Below, piece after piece: positions 40,511 to 56,822 of a stretch of 64,000 bases of DNA (the first letter of the stretch is position 1; every line of letters starts with the position of its first letter). Both the position numbers and the translations under genes were made by a program. Origin of the DNA: Arcobacteraceae bacterium (GTDB lineage Bacteria; Campylobacterota; Campylobacteria; Campylobacterales; Arcobacteraceae); NCBI GenBank assembly GCA_021107755.1, contig JAIOSF010000026.1:62001-126000 (forward strand). Reading direction: 5' to 3'. The notes under the pieces were generated by a model that made no database searches, was not told the origin of the DNA, and saw only the letters and a program-made list of their open reading frames with translations.

Positions 40511-40535
40511 AAAATGAACACGGGTCATTCATTTT
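40511..40535. promoter_or_regulatory. TetR-type operator, left copy
   Basis: AAAATGAA and TTCATTTT form an 8-bp inverted repeat around 9 nt. Read on the minus strand, the inner 21 bp fit ATGAATGAC-N6-TCATTT, which recurs at 52375-52395 before the RND/Mla operon. Confidence 0.7.
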
Positions 40536-40547
40536 AGGAAGGTATTC

Positions 40548-41144
40548 ATGGCAATAATTGTAGACAAGGTACAAAAAAGAAAAGATATCGCACTTTCTTG
40601 TATAGATTTACTTCTAGAAAAAGGTATTAAGAAGTTAACTGTATCTGAAGTAGCAATTCAAGCAGGTGTTTCAAAGGGAAGTATTTATGATTACTTTGAA
40701 AACAAAGAAGATATTGTTTTTGAGATTATTAGAAATGATATAGAAAATTATCAAGATAACCTTTATGAACAGATAACTCCTACTATATCAACAAGAGAAA
40801 AAGTTTTTTTGTTATTTGATTTTTTGTTAAGTGAAAATGATATGTTTCAAAAACATCAAAATATATATAAAGAGTATGTGAGTATAAATTTAGGAACTCA
40901 TAATGATAATATGAGTGAATTTAATAAAGAGTGTTCTGTTTTTTTTAAAACAACTATAGAAAAGCTTATAAAAGAGGGGATAACTAAAGGTGAAATTATT
41001 GAAGATTCTTTAAAGCTAGTAGGTGGTTTTTTAGCTGTTGAAAAAGGTTTTTTAATGATACACTGGACAGAAGGAAAAGATGTGAAGGGTGAACTTAAAG
41101 AGTTTATAAATATGATATTTGATTTAATAGAGGTGAAAAAATGA
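40548..41144 (+). CDS. TetR/AcrR family transcriptional regulator of the envelope island
   Basis: The helix-turn-helix KLTVSEVAIQAGVSKGSIYDYFENKEDI is a clear TetR N-terminus. The C-terminal 130 residues are a helical ligand-binding domain. The ATG follows TTTAGGAAGG. The operator over the promoter indicates autorepression. The same operator is present 12 kb away at the head of the oppositely oriented RND-Mla operon, so this protein is probably the common repressor. Its stop codon overlaps the tolC-like gene start by 4 nt (ATGA). Confidence 0.92.
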   Translation: MAIIVDKVQKRKDIALSCIDLLLEKGIKKLTVSEVAIQAGVSKGSIYDYFENKEDIVFEIIRNDIENYQDNLYEQITPTISTREKVFLLFDFLLSENDMFQKHQNIYKEYVSINLGTHNDNMSEFNKECSVFFKTTIEKLIKEGITKGEIIEDSLKLVGGFLAVEKGFLMIHWTEGKDVKGELKEFINMIFDLIEVKK

Positions 41145-42376
41145 TAAAAAAAATATTTCCATTAGTTGTAATTCCATTTACAATTTATGCACAAGATTTA
41201 AGTAAGTTAGTTGAAGAGTCGTTTCAAAATCAACTTGTTAATTCTTCAAAATATGGTGTGGAGTCGGTGAGAGATCAATATGAAAGTGTAAAAAACAGTT
41301 ACTATCCAACTGTATCAATAGGTGCTAATTATAACAAAACAGATGAAGAGACTGCTTCAACTCCTGACAACTCAACAGCTAGTTGGGCAAATATAAACTA
41401 TGTTGTTTATGATGGAGGGAAAAGAGGAGCTACTAGTGATGCTTTAAGTTTTTCTATTAAAAGTGCAAGTGAAGATTTAACAGCTTTGAAAAATAACATC
41501 GCATTAGAGATTATAAATCATTATTTCAACTATTATGCATTGATATCAAAAAAAGAGGCAAAACTAAGAGAGATAGAGCAACTTAATGCACAATATAAAA
41601 GATTAAAAAGATTTTTGGATGTTGGAACAACCACAAGCGATGAGGTTGATAAAATAGTATCAAGAGTTCAAAGTGCAACAGTTGTATTACATGAGATTGA
41701 ACTTAATATTCAAACAATTATCCATAATTTACAATATCTAACTACAAATGAGATTAGTATTGAAGCTGGTTCAACGATGAAAGATACTTTACTAAAACAG
41801 GAAAGTTTACGAGCAGATATAAAATCTTTGGAGCATGAGATGAATGCTCAATTATTAACTGCAAGAGGGAGTAAAAGCTCAAACTATCCAATTTTAACTT
41901 TAGATGATACCTATACAAATTATGATTTTAATTATGATAATGCAACATATCAAAATAGTGTTACTATGGATGAACAAAATATTTTTAAAGCAAGTTTATC
42001 TTGGAAAATATTTGATTTTGGTGCAACTACAAGAACTTATGAGAGTAATTATAAAAAATATCTTGCTCTAAAATCGCAATATGAATATGAAAAAAACAAA
42101 GCAAGTATAGATTTAAAACTAGCAATCAAATCGTATGAGATAGGGAAACTCAAAATAGAATCAGCTAAATCAGCTTTAAAAGCTGCAAATAGCACTTATA
42201 ATACTATAGAGAAGAAATACCAAAATGGATTAGTAGACAATGTTGCATATCTTGAAGCCTTAAGTGAAAAATATTCAGCAATAAGTGCATTAAAATCATC
42301 GCAATATGATTTAGAGATAAAAAAAGCAAATATTATTTACCATAGTGGTAAAAACTTAGAAGATTATATTCAATGA
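41141..42376 (+). CDS. TolC family outer membrane efflux protein
   Basis: A signal peptide (about 1-16, ending IYA-Q) precedes a 390-aa body with the duplicated helical-barrel pattern of the outer membrane efflux family: ESVRDQYESVKNSYYPTVSIGANYNK in the first half and LSWKIFDFGATTRTYESNYKKYLALKSQYEYEK in the second, each shown as the typical strand-helix junction. TolC proteins form the outer-membrane exit duct. No RND pump is in this operon; the one at 48077-52330, under the same operator, is the likely client. Overlaps of 4 nt link it to both neighbours. Confidence 0.88.
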   Translation: MIKKIFPLVVIPFTIYAQDLSKLVEESFQNQLVNSSKYGVESVRDQYESVKNSYYPTVSIGANYNKTDEETASTPDNSTASWANINYVVYDGGKRGATSDALSFSIKSASEDLTALKNNIALEIINHYFNYYALISKKEAKLREIEQLNAQYKRLKRFLDVGTTTSDEVDKIVSRVQSATVVLHEIELNIQTIIHNLQYLTTNEISIEAGSTMKDTLLKQESLRADIKSLEHEMNAQLLTARGSKSSNYPILTLDDTYTNYDFNYDNATYQNSVTMDEQNIFKASLSWKIFDFGATTRTYESNYKKYLALKSQYEYEKNKASIDLKLAIKSYEIGKLKIESAKSALKAANSTYNTIEKKYQNGLVDNVAYLEALSEKYSAISALKSSQYDLEIKKANIIYHSGKNLEDYIQ

Positions 42377-43077
42377 CAAAATTTCTAATCTTCTTTTTTC
42401 TTTGCTTTTCAGCTGTAAATGCACAAGAGGTTTATGCAACATTTCAAGTAGTTGCAAAACAAAGTGCAAATTTAGCTTTTAATAGTAGTGGAATAGTAGA
42501 TGAAGTTTTTATTGATGTTGGAAGTGTAGTTAATCAAAATGATCAATTAGCAATTTTAAAAAATAAAGATATAAAAGCTATGTTACATATTTATGAAACA
42601 TCTTTAAAATATGCAAAAAAAGATTATGAAAGACAATCACAAGTACAAGACCTAATAGATAAGGCAAAGTTTGACAACTATGAGATGGCTTATGAAGAAG
42701 CAAAAGCTCAAGTTGAGTATCAACAATCATTGTTAGATAAAACTACTTTAAGAGCACCTTTTGATGGTATGATTATCTCTAAAGAGATAGAAAGTGGTGA
42801 TGTTGTAAGTGGACAAGTTATCAAAACAGCTTTTACAATACAAAGTAGTGTATCTCGTAAACTTATCTTAGAATTTGATCAAAAGTATCATTCTGTAGTA
42901 AAAGTTGGAGATATATTTAAATACAAATTAGATGGAGATGATACAATACATAGCCAGAAGATATCCAAAGTATATCCTTATTCAAATACCTCTACAAGAA
43001 AAATAAAAGCAGAAGTTATTACAAAAGATTTGATGGTTGGATTATTTGGTGATGGATATATTCAAGTGAAGAAATAG
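42373..43077 (+). CDS. Short periplasmic adaptor (HlyD/RND type)
   Basis: After a signal peptide (to about residue 17), the protein has a biotinyl-lipoyl-like half (SGIVDEVFIDVGSVVNQNDQLAIL), a short helical hairpin, the second lipoyl half (TTLRAPFDGMIISKEIESGDVV) and a beta-barrel. At 234 aa it is much shorter than normal RND adaptors (350-400 aa) since the membrane-proximal domain is small or missing. Pump partner is unclear. It overlaps tolC by 4 nt and pldA follows after 1 nt. Confidence 0.85.
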   Translation: MTKFLIFFFLCFSAVNAQEVYATFQVVAKQSANLAFNSSGIVDEVFIDVGSVVNQNDQLAILKNKDIKAMLHIYETSLKYAKKDYERQSQVQDLIDKAKFDNYEMAYEEAKAQVEYQQSLLDKTTLRAPFDGMIISKEIESGDVVSGQVIKTAFTIQSSVSRKLILEFDQKYHSVVKVGDIFKYKLDGDDTIHSQKISKVYPYSNTSTRKIKAEVITKDLMVGLFGDGYIQVKK

Positions 43078-43078
43078 G

Positions 43079-44296
43079 ATGTTTAAAGCTTATTATCTCA
43101 TAATATTATTATACTCATTACTCCTAGCTAATGATATGTCTAATTATACTCAAGGTTTAGAGTTCTATAAAACAAAGCAATATGAAAAAGCTTATCCTAT
43201 AATACTTCAAGAAGCACAAAGGGGAAACAAAGAAGCTCAATACTTATTAGCTTTATTTTATGAAAATGGATTAGGGGTCAAAAAAGATTTAATAGAATCT
43301 ATCTCTTGGTATAAACAAGCGTCTTCAACTTATGCTTATATTACTCAAACCCAAGAAAATAATACTACACAAACTATCACAACAGCAGATGTTGTAGATG
43401 ATGAAAATAATCAAGAGCAAAAAGGTTTACAATTTATATTTAGTAAAATGGATTTAAGTTCCCCAAATGTAAAAGATGAAGTTGGAAAAATAGTGAATAA
43501 AAATTTTGGTATTTTACCGTATCACTCTAATTATATTTTACCAATTTCATACAATAAAAATAGCTATACAAAAAAATATTCAACAACACAAATAAGTGAT
43601 GAAAAATATGATAGCAATACAGAAGCTGAGTTTCAACTAAGTCTTCAAAAGAATCTAAGTTATAATCTTTTTGGCTTTAATGAATATATCTCATTAGGGT
43701 ATACACAACATGTTTGGTGGCAACTATACACTGATTCAGCACCTTTTAGAGAGACAAACTATACACCTGAGTTTTTTGTTACAGTTCCAACCTCTTATCA
43801 TATTGATAAACTTAATAATCTTAAAGCTATAAGGTTTGGGTATCGTCATCAATCAAATGGACAAGATGGATATAGGTCTCGTTCTTGGGATAGATTATTT
43901 TTAGCTACATTTTGGCAGTGGGATAACTTATTTGTAAAAGTTGAAGGATGGTATAGAATACCAGAAGATAGAAAAGGACAAGAGTTTTATAATGGAGTAG
44001 ATATTAATGCTAAAGGGGATGATAATCCCGATATTTTGGATTATTATGGGTATGGAGATATTGATATAAAATATTTATATGGAAAACATCAATTTGGATT
44101 GATGTTACGAAATAATCTTAAATCAGATAATAATAAAGGTGCAGTACAACTAGATTGGTCTGTACCAGTGAGTGATTCTAAAAATACCTATTGGTATGTA
44201 AAAGTTTTTAATGGATATGGGGAAAGTTTGATAGATTATGATAAAAGCAATACTAAAATAAGTTTTGGTTTTTCATTTTTTAGAAGTTTATTTTAA
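43079..44296 (+). CDS. pldA: Outer membrane phospholipase A (OMPLA) with N-terminal Sel1-like repeat
   Basis: OMPLA degrades phospholipids that reach the outer leaflet of the outer membrane. A signal peptide (about 1-17) is followed by a Sel1-like repeat (about 20-85; AQYLLALFYENGLGVKKD), a linker, and the 12-stranded barrel (about 140-405). The active-site block is HQSNGQDGYRSRSWDR. His and Ser match residues 142 and 144 of the E. coli enzyme, while the position of Asn156 is Asp. The closing block GYGESLIDYD is nearly identical to E. coli. The Sel1 part is not in the E. coli protein. It is the fourth gene of the TetR operon. Confidence 0.92.
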   Translation: MFKAYYLIILLYSLLLANDMSNYTQGLEFYKTKQYEKAYPIILQEAQRGNKEAQYLLALFYENGLGVKKDLIESISWYKQASSTYAYITQTQENNTTQTITTADVVDDENNQEQKGLQFIFSKMDLSSPNVKDEVGKIVNKNFGILPYHSNYILPISYNKNSYTKKYSTTQISDEKYDSNTEAEFQLSLQKNLSYNLFGFNEYISLGYTQHVWWQLYTDSAPFRETNYTPEFFVTVPTSYHIDKLNNLKAIRFGYRHQSNGQDGYRSRSWDRLFLATFWQWDNLFVKVEGWYRIPEDRKGQEFYNGVDINAKGDDNPDILDYYGYGDIDIKYLYGKHQFGLMLRNNLKSDNNKGAVQLDWSVPVSDSKNTYWYVKVFNGYGESLIDYDKSNTKISFGFSFFRSLF

Positions 44297-44396
44297 AATA
44301 TTTTGTAATATGGATTGATAAAGGATTCTTCATTGTTTAACCATATTAGAATTGAATATAGAATATAATAACAAAATTAATAAAACAAGGTAAATG

Positions 44397-44624
44397 ATGG
44401 GAAGAGCAAACAACTCAAGTGTTGATACAACAAAAGGTGATAGAATTGCACAGAAAATGAATGTTTATAAAAATAATTTAAAAGCAGGATTTAACCCTGA
44501 TGCAGCAGAACAAAAAGAACAAGTTGTTAATGCTAGAAAAGGTGTCAACTTAGAAGCCCAAAAAGCAAAGAAAAAGAAAAATGCAAAACTAGCAAAAGCT
44601 GCAAAGAGAAAAAATAAAAAGTAA
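44397..44624 (+). CDS. Small basic protein (75 aa)
   Basis: The product is 75 aa, begins GRANNSSVDTTKGDRIAQ and ends in a Lys/Ala-rich helix (KKKKNAKLAKAAKRKNKK). I do not recognise a family. There are two tandem ATGs (44394 and 44397). The second has better spacing from CAAGG. It is 100 nt after pldA and may have its own promoter. It meets the lipoprotein gene of the Mla operon tail to tail with 16 nt between. Confidence 0.62.
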   Translation: MGRANNSSVDTTKGDRIAQKMNVYKNNLKAGFNPDAAEQKEQVVNARKGVNLEAQKAKKKKNAKLAKAAKRKNKK

Positions 44625-44640
44625 TAATAGTTTATAATGT

Positions 44641-45237
44641 TTAACAAATGGAAACAATCCATTTATCAATCTCTTCTAGTACTTTTGTAAATGCTTTATT
44701 GAAAGCTTTAACTCCACCATAAGCATCTTGTGTTGCACTATTTATAACAGATGAAAAAGTTTTTGAATGGATGACGGTATTTGAGTTATAGTCTATTAGT
44801 GAGATATTGATTATAACTTTTACATATGATGATTTTGAATCTTCACTAAAATATTGTTTAAAATCTATTATGTTACTTTGAATTATGTAGTCATCTTTTG
44901 TGATGGATTTGTAGTTTTGTACACTTTTAAAAACATCTAATTGACTTAACATATTAGTGAGATTTATGGTGACCATTTGATTAACTGGAATACTCCACTG
45001 TGACTTGGTAAAAGAGTATTGTTTATATTTGCCTAAAATATAATTCATATTGGTACTCATAAGAGTATTATCACTAAAAGCTTGGAGTACTTTTAATGTT
45101 TTATTATTACATTTTTTTGATATTTCATTTTTTGGAAACTCTTTTATCTTCATGTTGTATTCTGTAATATAGGGTTGTTTTACACTACAACCTGTCACTA
45201 TTGTAATTAGGATAAATAAACTTATACTTTTTAACAT
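44641..45237 (-). CDS. Lipoprotein, ABC-transport auxiliary (PqiC-like) component
   Basis: A lipoprotein signal with lipobox VTGC (Cys about residue 17) starts the protein. The remaining 180 residues resemble the ABC-type transport auxiliary lipoproteins (PqiC/DUF330 kind) that accompany MCE proteins: LQAFSDNTLMST, IPVNQMVTINL, DDYIIQSNIIDFKQYF and SKTFSSVINSATQDAYGGVKAFNKA. It is the last gene of the operon, 3 nt after mlaD, and probably works with MlaD at the outer membrane. Confidence 0.78.
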   Translation of the reverse strand: MLKSISLFILITIVTGCSVKQPYITEYNMKIKEFPKNEISKKCNNKTLKVLQAFSDNTLMSTNMNYILGKYKQYSFTKSQWSIPVNQMVTINLTNMLSQLDVFKSVQNYKSITKDDYIIQSNIIDFKQYFSEDSKSSYVKVIINISLIDYNSNTVIHSKTFSSVINSATQDAYGGVKAFNKAFTKVLEEIDKWIVSIC

Positions 45238-45240
45238 TTT

Positions 45241-46200
45241 TTACTCCCCTGGACCTTTTTTAATCTCTTCTGTTTTAAATATAATATCAGCTGGACTTCT
45301 ATTATAATTTTTAATAGAATCTTCAAGTTTTATCATAAGAGTTTCCATCTGAATCAGAGTATTATTAAGATTTGGAATAGTATCTTTTGTTATATCTTTA
45401 AAATTAAAGTCACCCTTTGAAATAGCTTTTTCTATTTCATTCATAGTAGCTCTTACCGATAAATAACTTTTTGTAATAGAATTTATATTTTGAATTAATG
45501 TATTTTCAAAATCAGTAGTATTTGTTACTAATGTATCAATTTTTGGTACTAAATTATCAACTTTATTGGTAATATTATCTGAGTTTTCTAAAATATTATT
45601 AAAATGCTTTATGGTTTTTTCATCAACTAATCGATCCATTTTATTCATAAAACTCGTAGTTTGTTTTAAAAGAAGTGAAACTTGCTCTTGATTCTCTTCA
45701 TTAAGTAATTGTTCTATGTTTGATAATACTTTTGAAACCTTATTGGATACAGTATCCATAGATTTTTCAATATTCTCAAAAAGAGAAGGGGTAGTTTTAA
45801 TTACTGGATATTGTTCACCCTCTTGAGCTTTTAAAAATGGTGCGTTATTATCTCCTAAATTAAGATTAATATAGCTCAGTCCTGTTATCCCTTGAGATGT
45901 TAATTTTGCTACAGTTTTTTCTTTTATGGGAGTTGTTTTTAAAATAGTTATGAGTACTTCTACTTGTTCGGTGTTTTTTGGATTTATTTTAATGCTGGTA
46001 ACTTTTCCTACATCTATTCCTCGATATTTAACTACTGAATCAACATTTAAACCTAAAACTGATTCATCAAAACGAATAAGGTATTTTTTTGTTTCATTCT
46101 CTTGTTCAGGTTTTAATAACCAGTAAGAAAAAGTTAACATCAAAAAGAATCCAATAATTACTAAAAATCCAACTAAAGTATAATTAACTCTATTATTCAT
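45241..46200 (-). CDS. mlaD: MlaD-like MCE domain protein
   Basis: An N-terminal membrane anchor (about 7-28) is followed by one MCE domain (about 40-120) with the signature VKYRGIDVGKVTSIKI and LTSQGITGLSYINLNLG. The last 190 residues form a long, mostly helical coiled region containing the pattern NITNKVDNLVPKIDTLV. MlaD rings bind phospholipid and sit between the inner-membrane transporter and periplasmic partners. E. coli MlaD has no such long C-terminal extension. The gene overlaps mlaF by 1 nt. Confidence 0.9.
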   Translation of the reverse strand: MNNRVNYTLVGFLVIIGFFLMLTFSYWLLKPEQENETKKYLIRFDESVLGLNVDSVVKYRGIDVGKVTSIKINPKNTEQVEVLITILKTTPIKEKTVAKLTSQGITGLSYINLNLGDNNAPFLKAQEGEQYPVIKTTPSLFENIEKSMDTVSNKVSKVLSNIEQLLNEENQEQVSLLLKQTTSFMNKMDRLVDEKTIKHFNNILENSDNITNKVDNLVPKIDTLVTNTTDFENTLIQNINSITKSYLSVRATMNEIEKAISKGDFNFKDITKDTIPNLNNTLIQMETLMIKLEDSIKNYNRSPADIIFKTEEIKKGPGE

Positions 46201-46937
46201 TAAGTATTACCTCCAAAAAATGTATTAATAAATTCACTTTGTATTGAACTTATATTATCTAAAGTACCCTCATAAATAATTTTTTTATCATCAATGACAG
46301 CAAATCTATCCATAGTGTTATGGATTGATTTTAAATCATGGGAAACCATGACAATAGTTAGTTTTAATAAATCTCTTAAGTTTACAATAAGTTTATCAAA
46401 ATCTCTTGCTGAAATAGGGTCTAAGCCACTTGTTGGTTCATCTAAAAAAAGAAGTTTCGGATCAAGTGCTAAAGCCCTTGCTAGTGCTGCTTTTTTTTTC
46501 ATTCCACCACTTATTTGAGATGGATAAAGTGTAGCATCTGAGAGTTTTAATCCTACAATATTTAATTTAAAAGCTACTATTTCATTTACCATCTTATCAT
46601 TTAAATCTGTATATTCTTGAAGAGGTAAAGCGATATTTTGTGCGAGCGTAAGTGAAGAAAATAGGGCGCCAAATTGAAATAAAACTCCCCATTGTTGTCG
46701 TAAATTTTGAGCTTCATTAACACTAATATGATTTAAGTCTTTTCCTAGAATATGAACTGTACCACTATGAATTTTGTCAAGCATAACAATCTCTCTAAGA
46801 AGTGTCGTTTTTCCACACCCACTGGGACCTAAAAGTCCATATATTTCTCCATTATTGATACTAAGATTCAATCCATCATGTACAACTTTATCTCCAAAAA
46901 TTGTTTTGAGTTCTTTTACATTTATTATCTTTTTCAT
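46200..46937 (-). CDS. mlaF: MlaF-like ABC ATPase
   Basis: This is the ATPase of the Mla lipid transporter. Walker A is GPSGCGKTT, the Q-loop is LFQFGALF, the signature is SGGMKKKAALARA (the form typical of MlaF/Mkl ATPases), Walker B is LLFLDEPTSGLDP and the switch His is in VSHD. The length of 245 aa is normal. Stop and start codons overlap by 1 nt with mlaE upstream and mlaD downstream, so the three subunits are translationally coupled. Confidence 0.94.
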   Translation of the reverse strand: MKKIINVKELKTIFGDKVVHDGLNLSINNGEIYGLLGPSGCGKTTLLREIVMLDKIHSGTVHILGKDLNHISVNEAQNLRQQWGVLFQFGALFSSLTLAQNIALPLQEYTDLNDKMVNEIVAFKLNIVGLKLSDATLYPSQISGGMKKKAALARALALDPKLLFLDEPTSGLDPISARDFDKLIVNLRDLLKLTIVMVSHDLKSIHNTMDRFAVIDDKKIIYEGTLDNISSIQSEFINTFFGGNT

Positions 46938-48052
46938 TAAATGCCTAAATTTGTAAATATGATAGAAAAAATTGCATCACAAATAATAACTGCAAAGATA
47001 GATTCAACAACACTTTTTGTTGTATTATATCCTATACTTTGAGTATCATCTTTTACCATAAGTCCTCTATATATCGCAATAGAAGCAATAAGTATGGCAA
47101 AAAAAGGTCCTTTTGCAATACCAACTAAAAAATGTCGTATCTCAATAACATTGCTAAATCTGTCTAAGAATAAATCAAAACTAATCCCTAAATCTAAATT
47201 TGCGATTATCATACCACCAAAAACAGCCATGATATCAGATACAAAGATTAGTATAGGCATCATAATGATAAGTGCAATAACACGAGGTAAAACTAAAAAT
47301 CTATAAGGGTCAAAGCCCATCGTTCTCATAGCATCTAACTCTTGTGTAATTTTCATAGCACCAATTTGTGCAGTGTATGAAGAGCCACTTCTTCCAGCAA
47401 TTATAACAGCTGTAATAACAGGAGATAGTTCTCTTAGCATAGAAAGCCCTATCATATCCACTATAAATATATTTGCACCATATAAGCTTAATTGATTAGC
47501 AGATTGATAGGCTATAACAACTCCTATAAGAAAACTACTTAATGCAATTATAAAAAAAGCTTTTATTGCACTTTCATTCATCTCAAATAAAATCTCTTTG
47601 TATCTTATTGTTTTTGGTGATTTTAATAAATAAATTAAATTGATAAAAAGTTCACCGAAAAAATCTAAAAAATGTAAGAAACCAAGATAGTATTTGTGTG
47701 CTTTTTGACCTATATATTTTATGATATTATTTTGTTTGTTATAAAGAGATAGAGTATTTTTTTGTTTTTTTGTTTTTACGAGTTCTAAAGTATCGAGAAT
47801 ATTTTTATTTGTAGTATTAATAGTTACAGTTATATTTTGTGAAGAGTATTTATCATATAAATTTATTAGATATATGGCTGAAGCTGTATCTATAAAAGTA
47901 AGTTCAGATAAGTCAATAATGATTGCTTTAAAATTTGAAACATTAATAGCATCAATTAAAACTTGGTATTTTGAAATACTGTACAAAGTAAACTCTTCTT
48001 TAAAAATAAGGGAGAGTTTTTCATTGTCATATTTGAAAAATAAATTATCCAT
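46937..48052 (-). CDS. mlaE: MlaE-like permease with N-terminal STAS domain
   Basis: The first 110 residues form a STAS domain (IIIDLSELTFIDTASAIYLINL). The rest is the MlaE permease with about five membrane segments, including SFLIGVVIAYQSANQL, LSMLRELSPVITAVIIAGRSGSSYTAQIGAMK and ELDAMRTMGFDP. In E. coli the STAS protein (MlaB) is separate, here it is fused. The ATG is 24 nt after the RND pump gene and its ribosome site is in a small hairpin (48059-48072). Confidence 0.93.
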   Translation of the reverse strand: MDNLFFKYDNEKLSLIFKEEFTLYSISKYQVLIDAINVSNFKAIIIDLSELTFIDTASAIYLINLYDKYSSQNITVTINTTNKNILDTLELVKTKKQKNTLSLYNKQNNIIKYIGQKAHKYYLGFLHFLDFFGELFINLIYLLKSPKTIRYKEILFEMNESAIKAFFIIALSSFLIGVVIAYQSANQLSLYGANIFIVDMIGLSMLRELSPVITAVIIAGRSGSSYTAQIGAMKITQELDAMRTMGFDPYRFLVLPRVIALIIMMPILIFVSDIMAVFGGMIIANLDLGISFDLFLDRFSNVIEIRHFLVGIAKGPFFAILIASIAIYRGLMVKDDTQSIGYNTTKSVVESIFAVIICDAIFSIIFTNLGI

Positions 48053-48058
48053 AATAAA

Positions 48059-48072
48059 ACCTCTTTTGAGGT
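48059..48072 (-). promoter_or_regulatory. Small hairpin between RND pump and mlaE, over the mlaE ribosome site
   Basis: On the minus strand ACCTC-AAAA-GAGGT is followed by TTTATT. It may act as a weak terminator or attenuator between pump and Mla genes, and it also pairs the GAGG ribosome site of mlaE. Confidence 0.5.
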
Positions 48073-48076
48073 AGAG

Positions 48077-51000
48077 TTATTTACCTATTTCTTTTGTTTT
48101 ACTAAATTTTTGTTTTACTCTTACAACCAGATAGAAAAATAATGGTATAAACAATACCCCTATAACCATAGCAGCAATCATACCACCAACAACAGTTGTC
48201 CCAATGATATGACGGCTAGCACTTCCAGCACCACTACTTAATGCTAGTGGTAAAGTCCCCACGATAAAAGCTAATGAAGTCATAATAATAGGACGAAATC
48301 TTAATCGTGCGGCTTCAATAGTTGCATCTAGTAAACTCATACCATCTCTTAGTTTATCCATAGCAAATTCAACGATTAAAATAGCATTCTTTGCGCTAAG
48401 TCCCACTAGGGTTACAAGTCCAACTTGAAAATATATATCAGCTTCTAATCCTCTTAAATATACAGCAACAGCCGCTCCAAATATAGCAAATGGTATAGAG
48501 ATAATAACAGCCATAGGGATACTCCAGCTTTCATAAAGTGCAGCAAGGATTAAGAATACAAATATCGCTGCATATAATGATGTATAACTCCCTTCATTAG
48601 CTAGTTTTTTCTCTTGAAAAGATGTTCCAGCCCAAGCAATTGTATACCCTTCAGGAAGAACACTAGTAGCAATCTCTTCTATAGCTTCTAGAGCATCACT
48701 TGAAGCATAACCAGCACCTGGATTCCCTGTGACATTTGCTGATTGAAACATATTAAATCTTTGTATTACACTTGCATTTACTTTTCGTTCAAGTTTTACA
48801 AGTTCACTTACAGGTACAAGTTCTCCATCATTTGAACGAACATAGATATTTTTAAATTGCTCTTGAGTTGCTCTATATTGAGACATGGATTGGATATTAA
48901 CATGGAAAGTTCTTCCATATAAATTAAAATCATTAATATACCCTTTTCCAAATGTATTTTGAATATTTGCAAAAATAGAATCTATTGTAATATTCATAGA
49001 CTTTGCTTTTTGTCTATCAACTGTTAATAAGTATTGTGGAATATTTGTATTTAATGTTGTTCTCATCCCTGCAAGCCTTGGGTCTTGAGATGCTTTGGCA
49101 ATAATTTCTTGTGTATAAGTATTTAGAGTAGATAACTCTCCACCTGTTCTATCTTGTATCCACATCTCAAATCCGCCAGTTGCACTCATACCCATAATAG
49201 GAGGTGGATTTACAGGGATAACAAAAGCATCTTTCCCTTGCATAAATTGTCCCATAAGTTGCCCTGCAAGTACTTGAGAGTTTTGATTTGCATCTGGTCT
49301 TTCATCCCAAGGTTTTAACATAGCAAACATAATAGCTGCATCTGTTCTATAAGCAAATGTTGCAAGGTCAATACCTGTAATTGCTCCAACACCAATGATA
49401 TTTGGATTTGCTAAAAGTTGTTTTTCTATATCTTTTGTGATTATAGATGATTCACCAAGTGAAGTTGATGGCATAAGGTATGTAAGTACTAATAGTACCC
49501 CTTTATCTTCTGTTGGTACAAGTCCTGCTGGTGTTTGTTTCATAATACCATAAGTTGAAAATAAAAGTCCACCAAATAAAAAAAGTGAAAATACCCATTT
49601 TTTTATAGTGAATTTCGTAATTCCTAAAAATCTAATTGTAAGCCAGTCAAAAAAGTCATTAAACTTTTTAATAGGATATATTGGTTCAGATTCATGTTCT
49701 TTTAAAAATATTGCACATAAAGCGGGAGTAAGAGTAAGTGCTACAAGTCCAGAGATAACAACAGCCATAACAATAGTAATAGCAAATTGTTTATACATAA
49801 CTCCACTAAATCCACCACTTAAAGCTGCTGGAATAAATACAGCAGATAAAACAAGTACAATAGCTACAAGTGGAGTAGTAAGCTCTTTCATAGCTTCTAT
49901 AGTTGCATCTTTTACACTAATTGTTTTAGTTCGTAAGATTCTCTCAACATTTTCTATAACAATAATAGCATCATCAACAACCAGTCCAATAGCCAAAATC
50001 ATACCAAAAAGTGTAAGCAAGTTTATAGAAAAACCAGCAGCATAAAGTCCAGCAAATGTTCCTATAACAGATACAGGAATTGCTAGAACTGGGATAATAG
50101 TAGCTCTAAAGTTTCCTAAAAATAGATATATTAAAATTGTAACAAATACAATAGCTTCAAGTAAAGTTTTAATAACCTCTTTGATTGATTCATTTACAAA
50201 TAGTGTTGCATCGTACGGTACTTTATATTCTAAGTCTTCAGGAAATTTTGTTTTTAATTCTTTTAAAGTATCATCAAGTGCTTGTGAAACATCTAAAGCG
50301 TTTGCACCTGGTGATAAAAATATACCAACTGGCATCATTGGTTCACTATTGTATCTTCCCATTGTATTAAGAGCATCAGCCCCAAGTTTAACTTGTGCAA
50401 TATCTTTTAGTTTTAGTGTTGAACCATCAGTGTTTGAACGGATAATAATATTTTCAAACGCCTCAACATTTTTAAGGCGACCTTCTGTTGCTATAGAGTA
50501 AGTAAAAGGTGTAACCTCTTTTATTGGTTCTGCACCTACTGTTCCTGTTGAATATTGATTGTTTTGGCTTTGAATTAACTTGTTTACTTCACTAGGAACA
50601 AGATTGTAAAATGCCAACTTATCTGGGTCTATCCAAATTCTTATAGCATAATCTTTAGCCCCAAATACTACTACATCACCCACACCTTTAATTCTTTTTA
50701 AATCATCAAGTACATTGATTGTTAAGTAGTTTGAGATAAATGTTGTATCATGAACATTATCTTTTGATGTAAAAGCCAAAACTTTTAACATATCAGGAGA
50801 TCTCTCTTTTACTGTAATCCCTTGTCTTTGTACCTCAGGAGGTAATTTATTTAGTGCTAGTTGTACACGGTTGTTAACATCTACTTTTGCTTGTGCTACA
50901 TCTGTTCCAACTTCAAAAATAATACTAATTGAAAGTGTACCACTTGGACTTGCAGTAGAAGTCATATATGTCATATCTTCTACACCATTGATTGCATTTT

Positions 51001-51199
51001 CTAGAGTAGTTGCTACAGTTGCAGAGAGTGTTGCAGCATCGGCACCTGGATATACAGCTTGTACATTTATCTGAGGTGGTGTAACAGCAGGATACTCTTT
51101 TACTGGGAGGATATTTATAGAAATAATACCTGCAAGTATTATCAATACTGATATTACAGTTGCAAATATAGGTCTATTTATGAAAAACTTTGAGAACAT
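48077..51199 (-). CDS. RND efflux pump, HAE1 type (AcrB-like)
   Basis: The 1040-aa protein is a full-length hydrophobe/amphiphile efflux pump with twelve membrane segments. FFINRPIFATVISVLIILAG opens it. The proton-relay residues are present: the Asp pair in VVDDAIIVIENVER (segment 4) and Lys in GLSAKNAILIVEFA (segment 10). The porter-domain block DVNNRVQLALNKLP also fits. It works with the adaptor encoded just upstream and needs a TolC duct, for which the gene at 41141-42376 is the obvious candidate. Confidence 0.95.
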   Translation of the reverse strand: MFSKFFINRPIFATVISVLIILAGIISINILPVKEYPAVTPPQINVQAVYPGADAATLSATVATTLENAINGVEDMTYMTSTASPSGTLSISIIFEVGTDVAQAKVDVNNRVQLALNKLPPEVQRQGITVKERSPDMLKVLAFTSKDNVHDTTFISNYLTINVLDDLKRIKGVGDVVVFGAKDYAIRIWIDPDKLAFYNLVPSEVNKLIQSQNNQYSTGTVGAEPIKEVTPFTYSIATEGRLKNVEAFENIIIRSNTDGSTLKLKDIAQVKLGADALNTMGRYNSEPMMPVGIFLSPGANALDVSQALDDTLKELKTKFPEDLEYKVPYDATLFVNESIKEVIKTLLEAIVFVTILIYLFLGNFRATIIPVLAIPVSVIGTFAGLYAAGFSINLLTLFGMILAIGLVVDDAIIVIENVERILRTKTISVKDATIEAMKELTTPLVAIVLVLSAVFIPAALSGGFSGVMYKQFAITIVMAVVISGLVALTLTPALCAIFLKEHESEPIYPIKKFNDFFDWLTIRFLGITKFTIKKWVFSLFLFGGLLFSTYGIMKQTPAGLVPTEDKGVLLVLTYLMPSTSLGESSIITKDIEKQLLANPNIIGVGAITGIDLATFAYRTDAAIMFAMLKPWDERPDANQNSQVLAGQLMGQFMQGKDAFVIPVNPPPIMGMSATGGFEMWIQDRTGGELSTLNTYTQEIIAKASQDPRLAGMRTTLNTNIPQYLLTVDRQKAKSMNITIDSIFANIQNTFGKGYINDFNLYGRTFHVNIQSMSQYRATQEQFKNIYVRSNDGELVPVSELVKLERKVNASVIQRFNMFQSANVTGNPGAGYASSDALEAIEEIATSVLPEGYTIAWAGTSFQEKKLANEGSYTSLYAAIFVFLILAALYESWSIPMAVIISIPFAIFGAAVAVYLRGLEADIYFQVGLVTLVGLSAKNAILIVEFAMDKLRDGMSLLDATIEAARLRFRPIIMTSLAFIVGTLPLALSSGAGSASRHIIGTTVVGGMIAAMVIGVLFIPLFFYLVVRVKQKFSKTKEIGK

Positions 51200-52330
51200 C
51201 TAGTTTCCTTGTTCGTTAATTATCTTATCTACAACAACATCTGCACCTGGTTTTACTCTAAAGAAATTATTTACAATTACTCTATCTCCACTTTGAAGTG
51301 GACCACCAGCTACAACATATTTATCACCTGTTTCTTTTCCTATCATTACAGGTTTCACTCCAACTTTTCCACCATTTTCTATAAATACAATTGTTCCCAT
51401 AGGATTTTGTAAAACAGCTTTTTGTGGTATAGTGATAACATCTTTTTGTACAATATCATTAAGTATAACTCTTATAAAATTTCCTGGCATTAAAAAGCTA
51501 GCACTATTATTAACTATTGCTCTCATTTTTACTGTTGATGTATTTTGATTTATATTTACATCAATAAAGTCTATTATACCTGTATAAGTAGTAGGTTTTT
51601 CATTGATTTCTATATTTACTTTTACTTTTTTATCCTCTGGTAATGACCATAAATTATTCTTAATATTTTTATAATCACTTAATGGCATAGAAAAATCTAT
51701 ATAAACTTGCTCATTTTGAGTTATAGAAGTTAGTTCTTGTGGTGGATTATTCGTAACTAAATCTCCAATATCAACTTTTTTTAAACCAACAATACCACTA
51801 ATTGGTGCTTTTACATTTGTAAAATTTAAATCAATTTTTGCTTGAGTTAATTTTGCCTTAGCTAAAGCATATGATGCAGTTGCTTGTTCATATTCTGATA
51901 ATGCATCATCTCTTTTTTCAACACTTACTGATTTTGTTTTATAAAGTCTTTTTATTCTTTCCCAGTTTCTTGAAGCATTATTCATTGAAGCTTCATTCAT
52001 TTGTACAGATGCAGTTGCCTCAGCAACTCTTGCTTTATAAATATCATCTTCTATTTTATATAATAAATCACCTTGGTTTACTTTTTGACCCTCAGTGAAA
52101 TGTTTACTTTCTAACACTCCTAAAACTCTTGAAAACACTTTTATATTTTGAAATGATTTAATTTGCGCTGGATATTTTAAAATGATTGGTAAGTTTTGTG
52201 GCTGCGGTACAACATATATATCTGCTTTAGGTGCTGGCATTTTTTTTGCTGGTTGGGCTGAGAAGCTCATAGTTGGTATTACAAGTAGTGTAGCTACTGT
52301 TACAATAATTGATTTTGTGAACTTTTGCAT
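51200..52330 (-). CDS. RND efflux periplasmic adaptor (AcrA-like)
   Basis: A signal peptide (about 1-26, ending SFS-AQ) is followed by the lipoyl halves (FSRVLGVLESKHFTEGQKVN and FTNVKAPISGIVGLKKVDIGD), a helical hairpin (EATASVQMNEASMNNASRNW), the beta-barrel and the membrane-proximal domain. There is no lipobox Cys, unlike AcrA. The length of 376 aa is normal. The pump gene begins directly after its stop codon. AAGGAAAACT precedes the ATG. Transcription probably starts near the operator at 52375-52395. Confidence 0.94.
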   Translation of the reverse strand: MQKFTKSIIVTVATLLVIPTMSFSAQPAKKMPAPKADIYVVPQPQNLPIILKYPAQIKSFQNIKVFSRVLGVLESKHFTEGQKVNQGDLLYKIEDDIYKARVAEATASVQMNEASMNNASRNWERIKRLYKTKSVSVEKRDDALSEYEQATASYALAKAKLTQAKIDLNFTNVKAPISGIVGLKKVDIGDLVTNNPPQELTSITQNEQVYIDFSMPLSDYKNIKNNLWSLPEDKKVKVNIEINEKPTTYTGIIDFIDVNINQNTSTVKMRAIVNNSASFLMPGNFIRVILNDIVQKDVITIPQKAVLQNPMGTIVFIENGGKVGVKPVMIGKETGDKYVVAGGPLQSGDRVIVNNFFRVKPGADVVVDKIINEQGN

Positions 52331-52374
52331 AGTTTTCCTTGACTCTTTAATTTTATTTATTCTTGGTTATAATT

Positions 52375-52395
52375 ATGAATGACTCAGAGTCATTT
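52375..52395. promoter_or_regulatory. TetR-type operator, right copy
   Basis: ATGAATGAC-N6-TCATTT, which contains the perfect 15-bp palindrome ATGACTCAGAGTCAT. It lies about 45 bp upstream of the RND adaptor ATG, within the expected promoter, and matches the operator of the TetR gene at 40512-40532 in 15 fixed positions at identical spacing. Confidence 0.72.
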
Positions 52396-52540: not shown

Positions 52541-53152
52541 GTGTTAGAGCAAAATAAAACAAAATATTATCCTTATGGATTGGCTTGTTTAATTATAATG
52601 ATTTTTGTAATTTTGTCTATACAACCAAGTGATAGATCAGTTTGGGTTATTGAAGTTATACCTGTAGTTAGTATTTTTTTATTGTTGCTATTTACCTTTG
52701 ATAGATTTAGGTTTAGTAATTTATCATACACTTTGATTAGTATTGGATTGATTTGGCATACTATAGGTGCTCATTATACTTTTGCAAATGTTCCTTTTGA
52801 TTTTATTACACAGCAATTTGATTTTCAAAGAAATCATTATGACAGAATAGGGCATTTTTTAGTTGGTTTATATGCTTATCCAATAGCAGAATTTATGGAA
52901 AAAAAAAGATATACAAATTATGTGGTAGCAGTATTATTTGCACTTTTTTTTATCATGAGTATCGCTTGTGGTTATGAGATAGTTGAGTGGATATATGCTG
53001 ATATTGAGAGTGGAAATAGAGGTATAGAGTTTTTAGGCTCTCAAGGTGATAGCTGGGATGCTCAAAAAGATATGTTGGCTAATACACTTGGTGCTGTTGT
53101 TTCATTGTGTTTGTTTTGGTACATTAGACCTGATGAAGCAAGTAAGTATTAA
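52541..53152 (+). CDS. DUF2238 (YjdF-like) inner membrane protein
   Basis: The product has six membrane segments and the DUF2238 blocks: IGAHYTFANVPF, NHYDRIGHFLVGLYAYPIAEF, CGYEIVEWIYA and GSQGDSWDAQKDMLANTLGA. The conserved His, Asp and Glu residues in the membrane are reminiscent of the VanZ-like superfamily. The function is unknown. The start is a GTG with AAAAAGGGAG upstream. A TATAAT box at 52479-52484 may be its promoter. The next gene starts 18 nt later. Confidence 0.88.
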   Translation: MLEQNKTKYYPYGLACLIIMIFVILSIQPSDRSVWVIEVIPVVSIFLLLLFTFDRFRFSNLSYTLISIGLIWHTIGAHYTFANVPFDFITQQFDFQRNHYDRIGHFLVGLYAYPIAEFMEKKRYTNYVVAVLFALFFIMSIACGYEIVEWIYADIESGNRGIEFLGSQGDSWDAQKDMLANTLGAVVSLCLFWYIRPDEASKY

Positions 53153-53170
53153 TGATAAAAAAGGAAAAAA

Positions 53171-53797
53171 ATGGAAAATAAAAGAATAGATGAGATTGTT
53201 TTACAGATAAAAGAACTTGAAGATGAGCTTCTTGAGGAGTTTAAGAAAAAAGAGGAGCAGTTTTTTTACAGAATAGAAAATGAAAAAGTGAAATTTCAAG
53301 AAAGAGTTATTAAAGAGGGAAAATCTAAAATAATAAGTTCTATAAAATATCTTTCATCTTTTCCATTGGGGGTTATTCTTACCATTCCTTTTATTTGGGC
53401 TATGATTATTCCTATAGTTATGACAGATATATTTGTAAGTATCTATCAAGCTATTTGTTTCCCTATTTATAAGATACCAAAAGTAAAACGAAAAGAGTAT
53501 GTGATAATTGATAGATATAATCTCTTTTATCTTGACAGGGTACAAAAAATAAATTGTTGGTATTGTGAATATTTTAATGGTGTTGTTGCATATGTAAGAG
53601 AGATAGCTGCCCGAACAGAACAGTTTTGGTGTCCCATAAAACATTCAAAATCATTAAAAGAGAAACACTCACGATATGATAATTTTTTTGATTTTGGTGA
53701 CTATATAAAATATCGAGATGAAATAGAAAATCAAAGGTTGAATTTTGATGATTTATTAGAGAAGAAAGAAGAGCAAAAAAAGGAGACAGATGTATAA
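53171..53797 (+). CDS. Hypothetical membrane protein with cysteine motif (208 aa)
   Basis: I do not recognise a named family. The first 50 residues form a charged coiled coil, then one long or two short membrane segments (about 62-100), then a soluble part with NCWYCEYFNGVVAYVREIAA and QFWCPIKHSK. Three Cys and a His in this block could bind a metal. The ribosome site is AAAAGGAAAAA. It overlaps the RND pump start by 8 nt, so it is translationally coupled to the pump and possibly an accessory subunit. Confidence 0.7.
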   Translation: MENKRIDEIVLQIKELEDELLEEFKKKEEQFFYRIENEKVKFQERVIKEGKSKIISSIKYLSSFPLGVILTIPFIWAMIIPIVMTDIFVSIYQAICFPIYKIPKVKRKEYVIIDRYNLFYLDRVQKINCWYCEYFNGVVAYVREIAARTEQFWCPIKHSKSLKEKHSRYDNFFDFGDYIKYRDEIENQRLNFDDLLEKKEEQKKETDV

Positions 53798-56700
53798 ATT
53801 TGCCATAAATAGACCCATTACAACACTTATGGGTGTATTGACTTTTATAGTTTTTGGACTTATGTCATATAAAACTATGCCTATAAATCTTTTCCCAAAT
53901 GTGGATTTTCCTGTTGTTACAATTCAAACAGCATATAATGGTGCAGATGCAAGTACTGTTGAGACTAAAATTACTGATAAAATTGAAGAGGTAGTCAGTG
54001 GAATTGATGGTATAGATAAGCTGATGTCAAGTAGTTACGATGGCTTAAGTGTAGTGACTATTCAGTTTGAACTTTTTAAAGACTTAGATATAGCAACAAA
54101 TGATGTAAGAGATAAAATAGGCTCTCTTATATTGCCAGATGAAGCAGAAAAATCAGTTGTTAAGAAGCTAGGAGCTACAGGGGCTGTTATCTCACTTTTT
54201 GTATCTACAAAAAAAGGGGATGCAACAGCTTTGATGCGATTAGCAGATGAGAAACTAAAGCCAAAACTTCAAAGAATACAAGGAGTAGGAGAGGTAAATA
54301 TTGTAGGGTATCAAGATAGAGAGATACGAATATACATTAATCCTTTTTTACTCAATAAATACAATTTAACCCCTTATGAACTCCAGCAAATAATAAGTAG
54401 CCAAAATATTTCACAAGGGGCAGGAAAACTTATCAATGATGATAAAGAGATAATCATAAAAGTACAAGCAGATGCCCTTAGTGTGGAAGCATTATCCAAT
54501 ATATTTATAAAACAAGGTATCAAGTTAAAAGATATTGCTAAGATTGAAGATGGGTTAAGTGATACGAGTAGTTTCTCTTCATACAATGGAAATCAAGGTG
54601 TAATGCTTGAGGTGAAAAAAATATCTGGTGAAAATGTACTCAATATTATCAAAGGTGTTAAAGAAGTTTTACCAAGACTTGAAACAATAGCAGGGGAAGA
54701 TTACCAAATACAGTTATTACAAGATCAAAGTGATAAGATAATGGTAAATATAAATAATGTAACTTTTGACCTTATTTATGGTTCTATTTTGGCTATTATA
54801 ATTGTATTTTTCTTTTTACGAAATTTTACTGCAACTTTTGTTTCTGCTCTTGCAATTCCTACTTCTATTATAGGTACCTTTGCTATTATTGATTGGTTGG
54901 GGTATGATTTAAATCGTTTGACACTTATTGGTCTTACATTAGCTATTGGGATATTTATCGATGATGCTATTGTTGTTATTGAAAATATTACCAAAAAACT
55001 AGAGCAGGGACTTGAGCCATTTAAAGCTTCAGTTGAAGGGATCAAAGAGGTTGCTTTCTCTATCTTAGCTATCTCTTCTGTTTTACTTGCTGTTTTTATA
55101 CCAGTTGCTTTTATGGATGGGATTGTGGGGATGTTTTTTAACTCTTTTGCCATGACTGTTGCTGCTGGTATTATATTGTCTTATCTAGTAGCTGTTATGT
55201 TTATTCCTACTGTTGGTGCTAGAGTTTTAAATGCAAGTGAAAGTAAGTTTTACCATTTTACAGAGCCTTTTTTTGTGAAGTTAGATAAAACTTATGTTGC
55301 TATATTAAAACAGCTTTTGAGATTTAAAACATTAACTATAGTTTTAACTATTGGATTACTTATAGCTTCTACAAAACTTACTGTTGGTATGGATTTTATG
55401 CCTATGGAAGATAATAGTGAGTTTCAAGTATTTATTAAAGCACCAGTTGGTACAAATCTAGAAAATATGAAACAAAAAATACAATCATTAGTTGATAAAA
55501 TAGAAAAAGACAGTGTTGTTGAATATAGTGTAATCTCTATAGGATACAATAGTGCAAAAGAGATAAACAAAGCGAAAATTTATGTAAAGATGAAACCAAA
55601 AGAGCAGAGAGCGGGTATCTCTCAAGAGGATATGGTAGTAAAATATACCAATGAGTTTAAATCAATTAAAGATATGACAATTACAGTTGAAGACTTACCA
55701 CCTTTTGATACAGGAAGTTCTAATGCCCCAGTTCAAATTGTAATAACAGGAGATAGCCTAGATGTACTGGAAAAAACCACAACAAAAGTTATGGAGATGT
55801 TGCAAAATACAAAAGGGCTAGTAAATATAGATAGAGACTATGAGAGTGGAAAACCACAAATTAAAATCAATATCAAAAGACAAAATACTCAAGTAGCAGG
55901 GGTGAGTGCAAACGAGATAGCAGGGGTATTAGCAAGTGCATATAGTAGTGATAGAGCAATCTCTTTTTATGAAGAGAAAGGGAGACAGTTTGATATAACA
56001 CTTCGATTTGAAGATCAGTATAGAAAATCAATTGATGATATGAAAAGATTACAGGTGCGAGCTAGTAATGGGGAGTTTGTATCTTTAGAAGGGCTTGTAA
56101 CTTTCCAAGAAGATACAACAACTGCTTCTATAAATAGATTTGATAGGGAGAGAAAAGTTCTCGTAACTGCTGGGTTGTTTGGCGATAGTTTAAACAATGT
56201 TGTAACAACAATAGATACAAATATAAAAGAATTGTTACCACAAGGGTATAACTATAGATATACAGGGGATATAGAAAATATGGCAGATACAGCAGCTGCA
56301 TTTGGTGGTGCTGTACTTTTAGCTGTTATATTGATATATCTTATTTTAGCAGCACTGTATGAATCTTTTTTACAACCTTTGATTATTATGGTTTCTATGC
56401 CTCTATCTTTTACTGGGGTTATGGTAGCTTTATATTTAAGTGGAAATAGTTTTAGTTTATTTGTGATGATTGGTATAATCTTACTTTTAGGTATGGTTGG
56501 GAAAAATGCGATTTTAGTTGTTGATTTTGCAAATAAGGCAGTGGAAGATGGAAAAAGTGTAGATGATGCACTTTTAGAAGCTGGTGAGAAACGGCTTCGA
56601 CCAATTTTGATGACAACATTTGCTATGATTGGTGCTATGGCACCACTTGCATTTGGAACAGGTGCAGGGAGTGAGTCAAATGCACCTATGGCATTAGCTA

Positions 56701-56822
56701 TTATTGGGGGACTTGTAAGTTCTACAGTGCTGACACTCCTTGTTGTACCTGCAATGTATAAGTTTATCTATCCTGTGGATAGATTTTTAAGAAAATTTTA
56801 TGAGAAGGGGAAAGTTGTATGA
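53790..56822 (+). CDS. RND efflux pump (second), without adjacent adaptor
   Basis: The 1010-aa protein is a full-length RND pump: FAINRPITTLMGVLTFIVFG opens it, and twelve membrane segments are expected. The proton-relay Asp pair is in IFIDDAIVVIENITKK and the Lys in GMVGKNAILVVDFA. The two large periplasmic loops are present. There is no adaptor or TolC gene in this operon, unlike usual HAE1 pumps. Either it borrows the adaptors at 42373 or 51200, or the gene at 53171 replaces the adaptor. The 3' end overlaps the DUF2798 gene by 4 nt. Confidence 0.93.
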   Translation: MYKFAINRPITTLMGVLTFIVFGLMSYKTMPINLFPNVDFPVVTIQTAYNGADASTVETKITDKIEEVVSGIDGIDKLMSSSYDGLSVVTIQFELFKDLDIATNDVRDKIGSLILPDEAEKSVVKKLGATGAVISLFVSTKKGDATALMRLADEKLKPKLQRIQGVGEVNIVGYQDREIRIYINPFLLNKYNLTPYELQQIISSQNISQGAGKLINDDKEIIIKVQADALSVEALSNIFIKQGIKLKDIAKIEDGLSDTSSFSSYNGNQGVMLEVKKISGENVLNIIKGVKEVLPRLETIAGEDYQIQLLQDQSDKIMVNINNVTFDLIYGSILAIIIVFFFLRNFTATFVSALAIPTSIIGTFAIIDWLGYDLNRLTLIGLTLAIGIFIDDAIVVIENITKKLEQGLEPFKASVEGIKEVAFSILAISSVLLAVFIPVAFMDGIVGMFFNSFAMTVAAGIILSYLVAVMFIPTVGARVLNASESKFYHFTEPFFVKLDKTYVAILKQLLRFKTLTIVLTIGLLIASTKLTVGMDFMPMEDNSEFQVFIKAPVGTNLENMKQKIQSLVDKIEKDSVVEYSVISIGYNSAKEINKAKIYVKMKPKEQRAGISQEDMVVKYTNEFKSIKDMTITVEDLPPFDTGSSNAPVQIVITGDSLDVLEKTTTKVMEMLQNTKGLVNIDRDYESGKPQIKINIKRQNTQVAGVSANEIAGVLASAYSSDRAISFYEEKGRQFDITLRFEDQYRKSIDDMKRLQVRASNGEFVSLEGLVTFQEDTTTASINRFDRERKVLVTAGLFGDSLNNVVTTIDTNIKELLPQGYNYRYTGDIENMADTAAAFGGAVLLAVILIYLILAALYESFLQPLIIMVSMPLSFTGVMVALYLSGNSFSLFVMIGIILLLGMVGKNAILVVDFANKAVEDGKSVDDALLEAGEKRLRPILMTTFAMIGAMAPLAFGTGAGSESNAPMALAIIGGLVSSTVLTLLVVPAMYKFIYPVDRFLRKFYEKGKVV

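Follow-up and report, generated by a model that had tools for sequence, protein, structure and literature searches.

An Arcobacteraceae locus in which two facing gene units for RND efflux and envelope lipid functions carry copies of one predicted TetR operator

The window, by which we mean the whole stretch of 64,000 nucleotides analysed here (Arcobacteraceae bacterium, assembly GCA_021107755.1, contig JAIOSF010000026.1, positions 62,001 to 126,000), contains two gene units which run towards each other. The unit on the plus strand, tetR-tolC-MFP1-pldA (40548-44296; spacing -4, -4 and +1 bases), begins with the gene for a TetR-family repressor of 198 aa (40548..41144; PF00440, E 1.7e-12), which overlaps by 4 bases that for a TolC-type outer-membrane efflux channel (41141..42376; PF02321). 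These are followed by the gene for a periplasmic adaptor, MFP1 (42373..43077; PF16576/PF13437), and 1 base later by pldA (43079..44296), whose product PldA (OMPLA) has a phospholipase A1 beta-barrel domain (PF02253, E 1.4e-83, profile positions 13-257) preceded by an N-terminal Sel1 repeat (PF08238); the latter is retained in a 69% identical ortholog in genome G002. The unit on the minus strand, MFP2-RND1-mlaE-mlaF-mlaD-lipoprotein (52330-44641; spacing 0, 24, -1, -1 and 3 bases), encodes a second adaptor, MFP2 (51200..52330; TIGR01730 over cutoff), its partner RND1, a pump of the AcrB family (48077..51199; PF00873), an MlaE-type permease with an N-terminal STAS domain (46937..48052; PF02405, PF01740), an MlaF-type ATPase (46200..46937; PF00005), a 319-aa MlaD-type MCE protein with a long C-terminal part (45241..46200; PF02470; TIGR00996, 10-287) and an ABC_trans_aux (PqiC-type) lipoprotein (44641..45237; PF03886, E 1.3e-6; lipobox TGC by eye). 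The 24-base gap between RND1 and mlaE holds a weak hairpin with a T-rich tail on the minus strand (48059..48072), which is a possible attenuator and may lower read-through and mla expression. The two units converge on a gap of 344 bases (44297-44640), so that the facing arrangement described in the initial annotation, with TetR, TolC, one adaptor and PldA on the plus strand and the other genes on the minus strand, is confirmed. All of the genes which it named are present, but it omitted the gene for a further pump, RND2 (53790-56822), and the divergent plus-strand unit to which this gene belongs. This third unit (52541-56822) starts across a 210-base gap from MFP2 and consists of genes for a DUF2238 membrane protein (52541..53152; PF09997; also a neighbour of MlaEFD genes at loci L163 and L164), a 208-aa protein with no Pfam match (53171..53797) and RND2 (53790..56822; PF00873).

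Two copies of one palindromic motif are found at the starts of the facing units. The copy over the tetR promoter, O1, lies at 40512-40532 on the minus strand (ATGAATGACCCGTGTTCATTT) and reads AATGAACACGGGTCATTCAT along tetR (40513..40532, plus strand), while the copy before MFP2, O2, is placed in the 210-base gap at 52375-52395 on the plus strand (ATGAATGACTCAGAGTCATTT) and reads AATGACTCTGAGTCATTCAT along the gene (52375..52394, minus strand). Both copies, claimed earlier at these positions, are exact (0 mismatches), and in the refined 20-mer form, AATGAM-N5-GTCATTCAT, they have the same orientation relative to the gene which follows. O2 is a perfect 17-bp palindrome, AATGACTCTGAGTCATT, and O1 is a better palindrome in a 21-bp form, because of which the affinities of the two sites may differ. 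In the genome of 2.62 Mb (33 contigs), the exact long motif has only these two copies, compared to 0.03 expected per genome and 2.5e-6 expected in the 210-base gap before MFP2 (first-order model based on the dinucleotide composition of the window). When up to 2 mismatches are allowed, 14 rows are obtained from the whole genome, both strands counted, and the sole copy with one mismatch is located within an ORF. The short form AATGA-N7-TCATT shows no enrichment in the whole genome (18 sites vs about 17 expected), and 16 of these 18 sites are inside ORFs, the two intergenic ones being O1 and O2. Thus, the many random copies of the motif which, according to the initial annotation, would speak against its proposal were not found, as the exact count is two and the other sites either carry mismatches or lie within ORFs. 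Judged from its sequence and distribution, the 20-mer form is a conserved predicted operator rather than a chance pair.

Further, the site is kept upstream of tetR orthologs in related organisms. The 20-mer AATGAM-N5-GTCATTCAT is present with 0 mismatches before the TetR gene in five other genomes (G002, G003, G127, G044 and G430) and, at this stringency, at no further place in the 1.78 Mb of loci examined. Among the relatives examined, the site in the tetR promoter is of the type TTGACCGACGGTCAGTCAA, which in the closest relatives takes the form AATGAACGACGGTCATTCATT. The MFP2-RND1 pair of a Sulfurimonas MAG has no TetR gene directly upstream, yet TGACTGACAGTCGGTCA, a site of the same class, is found just before its start. 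A scan of genome contigs for MFP2 yielded one locus only. With a family-wide operator matrix built from 41 relatives, O2 comes only fourth among the sites of the window, and its score is one that random maxima also reach; this matrix was dropped as a detector of O2, being too broad to single it out. A candidate third site, AGTGACTAAGAGTCATT (C25:6978-6994, L237:6978-6994), was observed 33 bases before the genes for a YbhG-type adaptor and an ABC exporter, with no TetR gene nearby. It was rejected as a further target, as it is absent in 13 orthologs from the family, the upstream sequence in G111 being too short to judge.

The origin of these units becomes clearer when the pump genes are compared with their relatives. 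In seven Arcobacteraceae genomes (loci L066 and L094-L099), TetR-TolC-MFP2-RND1 forms an unbroken operon, in which MFP2 and RND1 are 60-64% and 78-81% identical, respectively, to the proteins of the window, and each of these operons has one operator of the same class before TetR. More distant genomes of the order retain the TolC-MFP2-RND1 trio, accompanied by TetR or by other regulators. From the single operon with one operator in the seven relatives, the locus looks like a rearranged form of a known TetR-repressed efflux operon, in which each half has kept an operator. The adaptor MFP1 has a different history. It adjoins RND2 and not RND1 in all 19 relatives from the order in which this was checked (two small genes intervene in 2 of the 19), due to which the pairing of MFP1 with RND1 was abandoned; its probable partner is RND2, whose gene in the window is found 10.7 kb further downstream, likewise on the plus strand. 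Hence, what was initially described as an efflux system comprises parts of two pumps, and one of these has its RND component outside the range to which that description referred. In G430, a member of another family, the two systems are found side by side, viz. TolC-MFP2-RND1 followed by operator-TetR-TolC-MFP1-RND2 (RND2 70% identical). Based on this arrangement and on the adjacency of MFP1 and RND2, the window looks like two neighbouring efflux operons which have become mixed and partly inverted. Direct control of the RND2 unit from O2 was considered as a further, conceivable link, but the best promoter-like match of this unit is about 90 bases away.

The TetR protein is encoded by a resident gene. 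The histidine kinase and the response regulator that precede it in the window do so in G002 too, and in G003 the response regulator does; the tetR ortholog there leads an unrelated pump. Its nearest solved relatives are MtrR and FadR of B. subtilis, both of which bind hydrophobic ligands. The protein misses the curated equivalog cut-offs for both (FadR 51 of 200 bits, MtrR 49 of 280 bits), and since these scores are far under the cut-offs, a hydrophobic or membrane-active inducer is proposed here only as a guess. The earlier suggestion that the regulon answers to a membrane-active compound or lipid is not supported beyond a weak resemblance to MtrR and FadR. The genome contains a second TetR protein (C10:123467), 33% identical to the first, with a site TGACC-N3-GGTCA (ATTGACCAATGGTCAAA / TGACCAATGGTCA) at C10:123427-123443 which is of the same class as the operators in the window. 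This gene heads a TolC-adaptor-RND-like operon, in which the reading frame of the transporter is apparently split in two.

Concerning the lipid genes, the MlaE, MlaF and MlaD families (PF02405, PF00005, PF02470) are present in the window, but the proteins miss the curated cut-offs for MlaD (TIGR04430, 59.5 of 135 bits), MlaF (PRK11831, 178 of 441) and MlaE (perm_MlaE_1, 159 of 315). PRK11831 (MlaF) is nevertheless the best NCBIfam match of the ATPase, and the cut-off of the general family TIGR00056 is passed. The genome has two MlaEFD sets, the second of which is on contig C10. No MlaA or MlaC is present in the cluster of the window; one gene for each is located on contig C29, and these could serve the window set, the C10 set or neither. 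Thus, the description of this cluster as MlaE-F-D with a lipoprotein holds, with the qualification that the genome has a second copy and that MlaA and MlaC are not beside it; the role in clearing phospholipid from the outer leaflet, which had been assigned to it, is only putative. PldA is single-copy in this genome and in most genomes of the family. The closest MlaEFD-lipoprotein sets (70-79% identity for MlaE/F) are those of G020, G127 and G001, and in the first two of these the neighbours are a DUF2238 gene, an AI-2E-type permease and a patatin phospholipase. In G020, the Mla set is followed by an RND2-like remnant and then by LpxR. In this remnant (L163:11972-12553), a Bcr/CflA-like N-terminus is fused to the C-terminal 45 residues of an RND2-like pump; it looks like a deletion scar, from which it follows that an RND2 gene once adjoined the Mla set there too.

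The exact fusion of efflux, PldA and Mla genes is found in the window genome only, as judged from 1.5 kb flanks at 29 further loci for each of MlaE and PldA. A related linkage is seen in G131, from another genus of the family, where an adaptor-RND-TolC-PldA operon faces, at a distance of 71 bases, a unit encoding PqiA-PqiA and a protein in which the MCE domain is present six times (L266:3414-13589). The pump in this case is from a different lineage than that of the window, and this RND-PldA-MCE linkage arose separately. In G046 and G103, which belong to two genera, MlaEFD-lipoprotein genes lie beside a YbhGFSR-type ABC exporter on opposite strands (L267:2730-11083 and L268:3328-11706), a patatin phospholipase adjoins RND1, RND2 or Mla genes at six loci (L163, L164, L219, L220, L223 and L246), and LpxR adjoins RND1 in L249. 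This recurrence of pump-phospholipase-MCE neighbourhoods, observed as a set of single cases, is suggestive.

The locus has the features of a TetR-repressed RND regulon, viz. a TetR gene accompanying pump genes, a conserved palindrome over its own promoter and the same operator at a pump promoter. The earlier proposal of one regulon is upheld to the extent that shared TetR control of both units is likely, given the conservation of the tetR operator, the presence of the MFP2 and RND1 orthologs in TetR operons of seven genomes and the operator before the lone pair in Sulfurimonas. Because of the last two observations, control of MFP2-RND1 through O2 is the natural reading, and binding of O2 by the TetR protein of the window is predicted from the similarity of the sites. 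The best explanation, which we consider probable, is that of a rearranged TetR-repressed multidrug-efflux regulon into which envelope-lipid genes have been taken. According to this explanation, TetR bound at O1 would shut down its own operon, tetR-tolC-MFP1-pldA, and at O2 the facing operon, MFP2-RND1-mlaEFD-lipoprotein. Binding of a hydrophobic or membrane-active inducer to TetR would then turn on both operons, TolC from the plus unit would join MFP2-RND1 from the minus unit to form a working pump, and PldA and the MlaEFD set would be produced alongside it. Transcription continuing from RND1 past the hairpin into the mla genes is presumed in this scheme. The rank of O2 by the matrix, the RND1-mlaE hairpin and the restriction of the fusion to one genome count against this explanation, as does the C10 TetR, which, from the class of its site, could also bind O2.

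It is also conceivable, if doubtful, that efflux alone (tetR-tolC-MFP1 and MFP2-RND1) constitutes the true regulon, and that pldA and mlaEFD are passengers of a chance rearrangement, which are expressed mainly from their own promoters or are cut off by the hairpin at 48059-48072 before mlaE. The Mla orthologs in G020, G127 and G001 (70-74% identity) are indeed without efflux regulators, the 69% identical PldA ortholog in G002 lies amid carbohydrate genes, and, G131 excepted, the fusion is absent at the other loci surveyed. However, pldA is separated from MFP1 by a single base and mlaE from RND1 by 24 bases, and both the separate RND-PldA-MCE linkage in G131 and the patatin genes by pumps or Mla genes at six loci speak against mere passengers. 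These last observations could instead mark the RND pumps of this clade as serving lipid housekeeping and not only drug efflux. The locus would then be a dedicated envelope-damage regulon, in which a TetR protein that senses acyl compounds or amphiphiles induces PldA, the MCE transporter and the RND pumps together. Misplaced phospholipid would be cleaved or retrieved, and the products, or the causing amphiphile, would be exported; we regard this as unlikely.

The remaining alternatives concern O2 itself. Its main ligand could be another TetR-family protein, with the two operons separately controlled, and the C10 protein, having its own TGACC-N3-GGTCA site, is a candidate for this, as O2, being a plain TGAC-N5-GTCA palindrome, is compatible with the C10 class of site as well. 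However, O2 shares an AAT flank and a TCATTCAT extension with O1 and with the operators of the TetR orthologs, whereas the C10 site lacks both, and this possibility is considered quite improbable. That O2 arose by chance and plays no part in regulation could be argued from the near-expected frequency of the short palindrome genome-wide and from the modest matrix score, but the rarity of the long form, both in the genome and in that particular gap, and its position before a pump which is TetR-controlled in relatives make this very improbable.

Several known systems resemble parts of this locus. In systems of the AcrR-AcrAB, MtrR-MtrCDE and CmeR-CmeABC type, as in the window, a local TetR protein acts over its own promoter and is accompanied by an adaptor, an RND pump and a TolC-type channel; the window differs from them in its split, facing operons, each of which has an operator and ends in PldA or MlaEFD genes. 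The Arcobacteraceae operons described above share with it the pump and adaptor orthologs, the operator class and the regulator family; unlike the window, each of them is one undivided operon behind one operator and contains no lipid genes. RamA of Klebsiella pneumoniae raises both RND pumps (AcrAB, OqxAB) and mlaFEDCB (PMC11792452), and hence also places RND pumps and mla under one regulator. However, it is an AraC-type activator of distant loci with no PldA, whereas the window has a TetR repressor and a fused locus. The G131 locus likewise brings together an RND pump, TolC, PldA and an MCE lipid transporter, but it differs in pump lineage (41%) and MCE type and is without TetR or an operator of the same class. 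In Veillonella, an MlaEFD-only system is known (PMC10665443), which is similar in having MlaE, F and D with no MlaA or MlaC in the cluster; the window differs by its PF03886 lipoprotein and by the presence of MlaA and MlaC elsewhere in the genome. In Arcobacter, RND and YbhGFSR pumps have been investigated through inactivation of their genes (PMC8300790, PMC9951867), and in the parts of these studies consulted the arrangement of the window was not found. The literature searched yielded no description of a single locus that combines genes for TetR, PldA, MlaEFD and an RND pump. The earlier statement that no such arrangement had been described thus stands for the operon arrangement, but not for one regulator acting on RND pumps and mla, which is described for RamA. 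The kind of regulon is known, and the combination of genes is new.

On the explanation proposed above, the window is an example of an efflux operon which was broken up and kept its co-regulation through a second operator. As the same predicted TetR site stands before both sets of genes, one chemical signal probably turns on both pumping and membrane repair. If this is true, one repressor couples drug efflux with outer-membrane lipid repair in this organism, and the suspected connection of RND pumps with the lipid asymmetry of the membrane could be tested on this locus in a simple way.
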